The position numbers and the translations under genes are program-made. From Hanstruepera flava (GTDB lineage: Bacteria > Bacteroidota > Bacteroidia > Flavobacteriales > Flavobacteriaceae), in NCBI RefSeq assembly GCF_023634025.1, contig NZ_JALJCW010000004.1:124001-188000 (forward strand): a stretch of DNA of 64,000 bases, given 5' to 3'. The notes below the pieces were generated by a model. It ran no database searches. It was given only the letters and a program-made list of their open reading frames with translations, and had not been told where the DNA came from. Positions 17,941 to 18,061 of this stretch are shown in pieces (the first letter of the stretch is position 1; each line of letters opens with the position of its first letter).

Positions 17941-17977
17941 TAAAAAATAAACCCGCTTGATTTACTCAAACGGGTTT
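17941..17977 (-). terminator. Attenuator terminator of the his operon
   Basis: On the minus strand: AAACCCG ... CGGGTTT outer stem (17971-17977 with 17949-17955), a TTGA/TCAA inner stem (17966-17969 with 17957-17960), then ATTTTTTA. It lies between the His-rich leader peptide and hisG, more than 60 bases before the hisG ATG, so it acts on operon read-through. Confidence 0.85.
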
Positions 17978-18022
17978 AAAATATATTTAGATTTATTCAA
18001 TACATTTTCAGCTCGCTTGAGT
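17964..18022 (-). promoter_or_regulatory. Antiterminator pairing of the his attenuator
   Basis: ACTCAAGCG in the leader (18014-18022, just before the leader stop) is complementary over 9 bases (one G-U) to CGTTTGAGT at 17964-17972, which is the 5' arm and loop of the terminator. Pairing removes the inner stem and two outer base pairs of the terminator. A ribosome at the leader stop would cover the first element; a ribosome stalled at the His codons would leave it free. Confidence 0.75.
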
Positions 18023-18061
18023 GCAAGTATGAAAATGATGATGTAATTGAATAAAATTCAT
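18008..18061 (-). CDS. hisL: His operon leader peptide (17 aa)
   Basis: ATG at 18061, TGA at 18008-18010. The peptide reads MNFIQLHHHFHTCTQAS: four His in five codons (positions 7, 8, 9 and 11, all CAT), the expected sensor of a histidine attenuator. It is followed by an antiterminator element, then the terminator at 17941-17977, then hisG. Starved cells should stall in the His codons, free the antiterminator and transcribe the operon. The mechanism is established for enteric his operons; its use here is inferred from the sequence arrangement. Confidence 0.85.
   Translation of the reverse strand: MNFIQLHHHFHTCTQAS

Follow-up and report, generated by a model that had tools for sequence, protein, structure and literature searches.

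A Predicted Ribosome-Mediated Attenuator before the his Operon in Bacteroidota, with an Additional Pairing Strand in Flavobacteriales

Introduction

The leader peptide of the enteric his operon contains a run of seven His, and the trp operon of B. subtilis joins a TRAP attenuator to a hairpin at the trpE initiation site in the read-through RNA. Published accounts present leader-peptide attenuators as a largely proteobacterial device, rare in other bacteria (PMC3766115, PMC2965389), and those for amino acids are regarded as mainly gamma-proteobacterial (PMC3766115). For the Bacteroidetes, such control had been implied before by Bacteroid-trp, a predicted leader-peptide attenuator (RF01692; listed in PMC2864571). 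A structured 5' element at hisG was described for F. psychrophilum in 2021 (PMC9723704), at the same position and in the same family as the leader considered here, and conserved in other Flavobacteriaceae genera; apart from this element, the same paper reports strong clues for leader-peptide attenuation at amino acid operons in general. Its section on hisG treats neither the anatomy, covariation, and phylum-wide spread of the element nor the fifth strand (S5) described below.

We analyzed a stretch of 64,000 nt (the window) from a genome of the Flavobacteriaceae, in which the his operon is very probably under a ribosome-mediated (leader-peptide) transcription attenuator, with the stalling, the coupling of transcription and translation, the start site, and the response to histidine predicted from sequence comparison. 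The leader resembles the enteric his attenuator (hisL, RF00514) in its His-rich ORF, its mutually exclusive protector, antiterminator, and terminator helices, and its position upstream of hisG; it differs in that RF00514 is not listed for it even at E ≤ 10, that the phylum translates without Shine-Dalgarno pairing, that its His run is shorter (three to four instead of seven), and that S5 is present. The covariance model of Bacteroid-trp does not match the his leader either; that element senses Trp, has a different sequence, and its terminator adjoins the trpE start, leaving no room for S5. In an Rfam scan of the whole window no family, T-box included, attained its gathering score; every match at E ≤ 10 fell well short of that score and was taken as chance.

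Ribosome-mediated attenuation in the Bacteroidota is therefore not new in itself, as it was predicted by RF01692 and by the passages of PMC9723704 on amino acid operons. The kind of control is known; this his member is not in Rfam, and S5 sets it apart. What we add is the phylum-wide evidence, the full anatomy (table 1), and S5, although his leaders of Bacteroidota may already be included in Lopatovskaya 2010 (cited in PMC4833913).

Table 1. Features of the his Leader Region in the Window (Minus-Strand Features Are Given from Their 5' End)
Feature	Sequence	Position	Strand	Remarks
SPFH-protein gene		18940-18128	-	Upstream of the leader
Promoter-like elements	TTG; AAAATTTG	18111-18080	-	TTG 18111-18109; second element 18087-18080, one mismatch to TAnnTTTG; spacing 21
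Leader ORF	MNFIQLHHHFHTCTQAS	18061-18008	-	ATG 18061, TGA 18010-18008; four His codons, three in a run
Strand 1	TTTATTCAAT	18055-18046	-	5' strand of protector helix, within leader ORF, codons 3-6
Strand 2a	ACTCAAGCG	18022-18014	-	5' strand of antiterminator, leader codons 14-16
Strand 2b	AAAATGTATTGAATAAA	18008-17992	-	Begins at last base of stop codon; partner of strand 1 (protector) or 3a
Strand 3a	AATATATTTT	17987-17978	-	Partner of 2b when antiterminated, nested in antiterminator
Strand 3b	CGTTTGAGT	17972-17964	-	Shared strand, alternative partner of 2a (antiterminator), of 4 (terminator), or of S5
Intrinsic terminator	AAACCCGTTTGA/TCAAGCGGGTTT; ATTTTTTA	17977-17941	-	17977-17966 with 17960-17949, then U tract to 17941
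S5	GGTTTACTCAAAC	17922-17910	-	Past U tract; 13-base complement (with G-U) of 3b and terminator loop, 17971-17959
Small GC hairpin	GATTCCCGCTTTCTCGGGATT	17899-17879	-	Between S5 and hisG ATG
his operon		17874-10862	-	ORFs of hisG-hisD-hisC-hisB-hisH-hisA-hisF-hisIE, eight genes; hisG start 17874

Conservation of the Histidine Codons

The eight genes behind the leader, which we take to be a his operon by recognition of their sequences, were represented in the comparison with relatives by hisG. A HisG search of named genomes gave 80 loci, all from Flavobacteriaceae or flavobacterial MAGs according to their titles. The His-rich minus-strand ORF upstream of hisG (four His codons, HHHFH) lies exactly where the earlier note on this DNA had placed it, and the leader is kept in 79/79 loci of close relatives for which upstream DNA is present. 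In these loci the typical peptide starts at ATG and reads M-x-F-I-Q-x-HHH(H)-F-H-x-x-x-Q-A-(S/R/N/K), and the end of the ORF is separated from hisG by about 100–180 nt.

Counted over all 80 loci, the His run is encoded by 272 CAT and 12 CAC codons (284 together) and one TAT, with neither CAA nor CAG found. The relative L005 has its stop three codons early and still keeps the RNA strand CTTAAGCGAG, so that the Q-A-x end of the peptide would reflect RNA pairing and the His codons would reflect coding. The codon counts show the His codons to be conserved as codons.

A motif of the form TTG-N21-xAnnTTTG precedes the leader ATG by 14–25 nt (mostly 17–19) in nearly all 80 loci. It is close to the promoter of Bacteroidota, and we regard it as promoter-like, with a predicted start site for the leader transcript just downstream.

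Mutually Exclusive Helices

The earlier note had described the leader peptide, the antiterminator, and the terminator as the full set of parts of the enteric attenuator. All of these parts were correctly listed; the set is, however, larger than the enteric one owing to S5, and the list missed both the protector helix and this conserved strand past the terminator. The hairpin with its T tract is present as described, and strand 2a, the nine-base element near the leader stop, is complementary to strand 3b over nine bases with one G-U. The whole leader (18070-17941) folds with a z of -7.4, and none of 200 shuffles was equally stable (0/200); the terminator hairpin has a folding energy of -18.6 kcal/mol (z -6.8). 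In the protector, strand 1 pairs with 2b past the leader stop, and an inner stem closes over 2a.

The proposed check by comparison of his leaders bore the earlier note out, with His codons conserved across the Flavobacteriaceae and beyond and with compensatory changes in the competing stems, those of the terminator and protector within the family and those of the antiterminator across the phylum. In the family alignment, 99% of the terminator cells are paired, with compensatory exchanges at two pairs (e.g., C-G to A-U in eight sequences). For the protector, eight pairs show two-sided changes, which make up 27 cells where shuffles give 9.6; an example is ATTCAA/TTGAAT, which is ATCCAA/TTGGAT in the relative L040. 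Support for strand 3a is weaker, with no pair changed on both sides. The antiterminator helix 2a:3b is 95% paired and, since 3b has to match strand 4 as well, almost invariant within Flavobacteriaceae; covariation within the family is consequently silent on it. RNAalifold recovered only the terminator and one four-pair helix from the same alignment, since the alternative structures share strands.

Across the phylum the two antiterminator strands have changed together, at or near the end of the leader ORF: Flavobacteriaceae have TCTCAAGCG/CGTTTGAG, and elsewhere we find GGGTAAGC/GCTTACCC, CAGGTAG/CTACCTG, and GAGCCGGG/CCCCGGCTT. The mean 2a:3b duplex energy is -14.0 kcal/mol for a genome's own strands, -9.9 kcal/mol when strands are swapped between genomes, and -8.3 kcal/mol when they are shuffled; the own duplex lies beyond 95% of shuffles in 39 of 50 loci of the phylum. 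Several features by which this class of attenuators is recognized are found here: a small ORF in which codons for the amino acid made by the operon follow one another and are conserved as such, an intrinsic terminator ahead of the first gene, and a mutually exclusive antiterminator with covariation, seen across the phylum and silent within the family.

The hairpin might instead be merely the 3' terminator of the SPFH-protein gene upstream, the His-rich ORF being incidental or otherwise used. This gene precedes the leader on the same strand in 74/76 close relatives, and the terminator may therefore also end its transcript; but the His codons, the covariation of 2a:3b and of the protector, and the intervening promoter-like motif would then go unexplained. 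As the two relatives lacking an SPFH homologue (L048 and L063) still have leader and terminator, and as the phylum sample likewise shows the device ahead of hisG, we consider this reading very unlikely and retain the attenuator.

Predicted Ribosome Stalling and the Timing of Pairing

In the attenuator as we envisage it, RNA polymerase would start about 10–15 nt before the leader ATG. With charged tRNA-His plentiful, the ribosome would pass HHHFH, reach the stop codon, and cover 2a, leaving 3b to pair with strand 4, and transcription would stop at the U tract (17941). With His-tRNA scarce, it would stall in the His run with its leading edge just short of 2a; the protector could not form under it because strand 1 is covered, 2a would pair with 3b and 2b with 3a inside, and the terminator would come too late, so that hisG and the genes behind it would be transcribed. 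If the leader is not translated, it would fold on itself (1:2b, with 2a enclosed) and terminate by default.

The geometry of the leader is consistent with this scheme. In 62 of 68 loci, 14 nt separate the last codon of the His run from the conserved core of 2a; loci that have a fourth His codon carry it upstream in the alignment, which preserves the spacing. These 14 nt correspond to the assumed reach of a ribosome, and the spacing fits stalling.

Equilibrium folding favors the terminator over the antiterminator in every state and cannot discriminate between them. The switch must accordingly be kinetic, like the enteric attenuators, and we replaced equilibrium folding by a test of the moment just before strand 4 is made, in which the RNA extends only to the terminator loop and the footprint and reach of the ribosome are assumed. 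In this model 2a:3b has a pairing probability of 0.96–0.98 when the ribosome is stalled on the His run, be it at the first codon or the last, and of 0.00 when it has reached the stop codon: under the assumed footprint, the stall codons leave 2a free and the ribosome at the stop covers it, as expected of the class. Without a ribosome the probability is 0.48, which suggests that default termination depends on the protector forming first.

A terminator and antiterminator alone would fit any attenuator, including one controlled by a translation-independent sensor (T-box, riboswitch, or RNA-binding protein) in which the ORF is not the sensor. Against this stand the conservation of the His codons as codons, their placement one ribosome reach before 2a, the scant sequence left for an aptamer outside the ORF and the switch strands, and the lack of any Rfam family, T-box included, at gathering score within the window. 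We give such a sensor very little credence and take the translating ribosome to be the probable one.

Distribution across the Phylum

A covariance model trained on the window together with 41 family loci matches 101 of 120 Flavobacteriaceae genomes, each from a different genus and the source genome included; the latter holds one strong copy. For a wider view we took 69 regions upstream of hisG from genomes of the same family, order, class, or phylum and counted ORFs in which four or more of seven residues are His, at most 300 nt upstream of hisG. Such His clusters occur in 48/69 regions in sense and 0/69 in antisense orientation (mean in dinucleotide shuffles, 0.12), and the next best residue, Ser, reaches 8/69. 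It should be noted that the leader is absent from some of the 69 sampled genomes, including all six whose HisG is only about 30% identical.

The distant leaders have His clusters in common and little other peptide sequence. His-rich peptides can bind metals, and the leader peptide might itself act in this or another way instead of through stalling; against this stand the scant peptide sequence shared beyond the His clusters and the relative L005, whose ORF ends early with the RNA strand kept. This alternative seems to us barely credible, the least probable of those considered, and stalling remains our preferred explanation.

The strands of the switch were independently redesigned across the Bacteroidota sampled and yet remained complementary, which points to ribosomes following RNA polymerase closely enough for stalling to be read; without such close coupling in the phylum the redesign would be hard to explain. 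Transcription–translation coupling without Shine-Dalgarno initiation thereby becomes directly testable in a simple reporter, and the role of S5 in the same construct.

One locus from a different class of the phylum (L111) has the leader MNLLQLHHHRHHHTCSQARW, strands of the Flavobacteriales type, S5, and a HisG 61% identical, suggesting a possible horizontal transfer of the his operon together with its attenuator.

An Additional Strand near the hisG Start

S5 is found in the Flavobacteriaceae, in the other sampled family of the same order, and in L111, and was not evident in the other families of the phylum sample. Over 80 family loci the mean energy of its duplex is -13.2 kcal/mol for own strands, -8.6 kcal/mol for swapped, and -5.0 kcal/mol for shuffled ones. 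With each of the 38 distinct arm-plus-loop sequences represented once, own pairs average -10.9, permuted partners average -7.65 (sd 0.33), and 0/5000 permutations gave a value as low; A-U, U-A, and C-G exchanges occur at the loop positions. The pairing, by which S5 would compete for 3b in the read-through RNA near the hisG start of Flavobacteriales, is thus well supported on comparative grounds. In the read-through RNA of the window (stop codon to hisG), the S5 helix and the terminator are nearly isoenergetic (-31.7 and -31.9 kcal/mol); across loci the terminator is favored at equilibrium.

As to its role, we propose that S5 may gate the translation of hisG; it would add a second control level or would lock 3b. 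It ends 12–21 nt before the hisG ATG in 52/68 loci, and many of the others, the window included, carry a small inserted hairpin. In F. johnsoniae (PMC6847099), the RNA between -20 and +20 tends to lack pairing and A-rich positions around -12/-13 are important, which places S5 at the edge of the initiation region. A two-level switch can be envisaged for the Flavobacteriales, in which 3b chooses between 2a, strand 4, and S5, and the stalled leader ribosome would set both termination and, in the read-through RNA, the access of ribosomes to hisG; this is a tentative suggestion, to which we give distinctly less than an even chance. Such a switch, if true, would act in bacteria whose phylum does not use Shine-Dalgarno pairing for initiation and favors an unstructured start region. 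Its logic would resemble that of B. subtilis trp if S5 controls hisG translation; the sensor is a protein there and a ribosome here, and the role of S5 is a proposal.

Rather than acting on hisG translation, the S5 helix may serve RNA processing, mRNA stability, or the resetting of the leader after read-through. In favor of this, the 13-bp helix is nearly isoenergetic with the terminator in the read-through RNA, and S5 could enter via the unpaired loop; we rate this as plausible, if a little short of an even chance. The position of S5 is, by contrast, tied to the hisG start, with many exceptions that have the inserted hairpin, and this tie favors a role in initiation. Two further ideas were dropped: a protein operator, as S5 covaries rather than holding a fixed sequence, and an action on the termination decision, as S5 is made after the terminator.

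About a dozen relatives in which S5 lies farther from the ATG have similar inserted hairpins here (GATACCCACTTTCGTGGG and others), which resemble short mobile repeats; the one in the window is probably such a repeat and outside the switch.

Further Amino Acid Leaders in the Source Genome

Leaders before pheA, trpE, and thrA in the source genome speak for the attenuator at the his operon as well. A search of this genome for ilvD found none. Upstream of thrA (L156, contig C7) lies a Thr-rich leader ending in STVTTTTPWG, at which a GC-rich hairpin with a U tract was not evident. The trpE leader (L153, contig C2) has MNTILNHTWWCIYRNQLS and a terminator, and matches the Rfam family Bacteroid-trp (RF01692) with 59.4 bits (gathering score 49). 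At pheA (L155, contig C3), a Phe-rich leader, MKASTNFTYYNWFYFFFSKRNETAYM, without an Rfam match is followed by a strong terminator just before the gene, and this is probably a Phe/Tyr attenuator.
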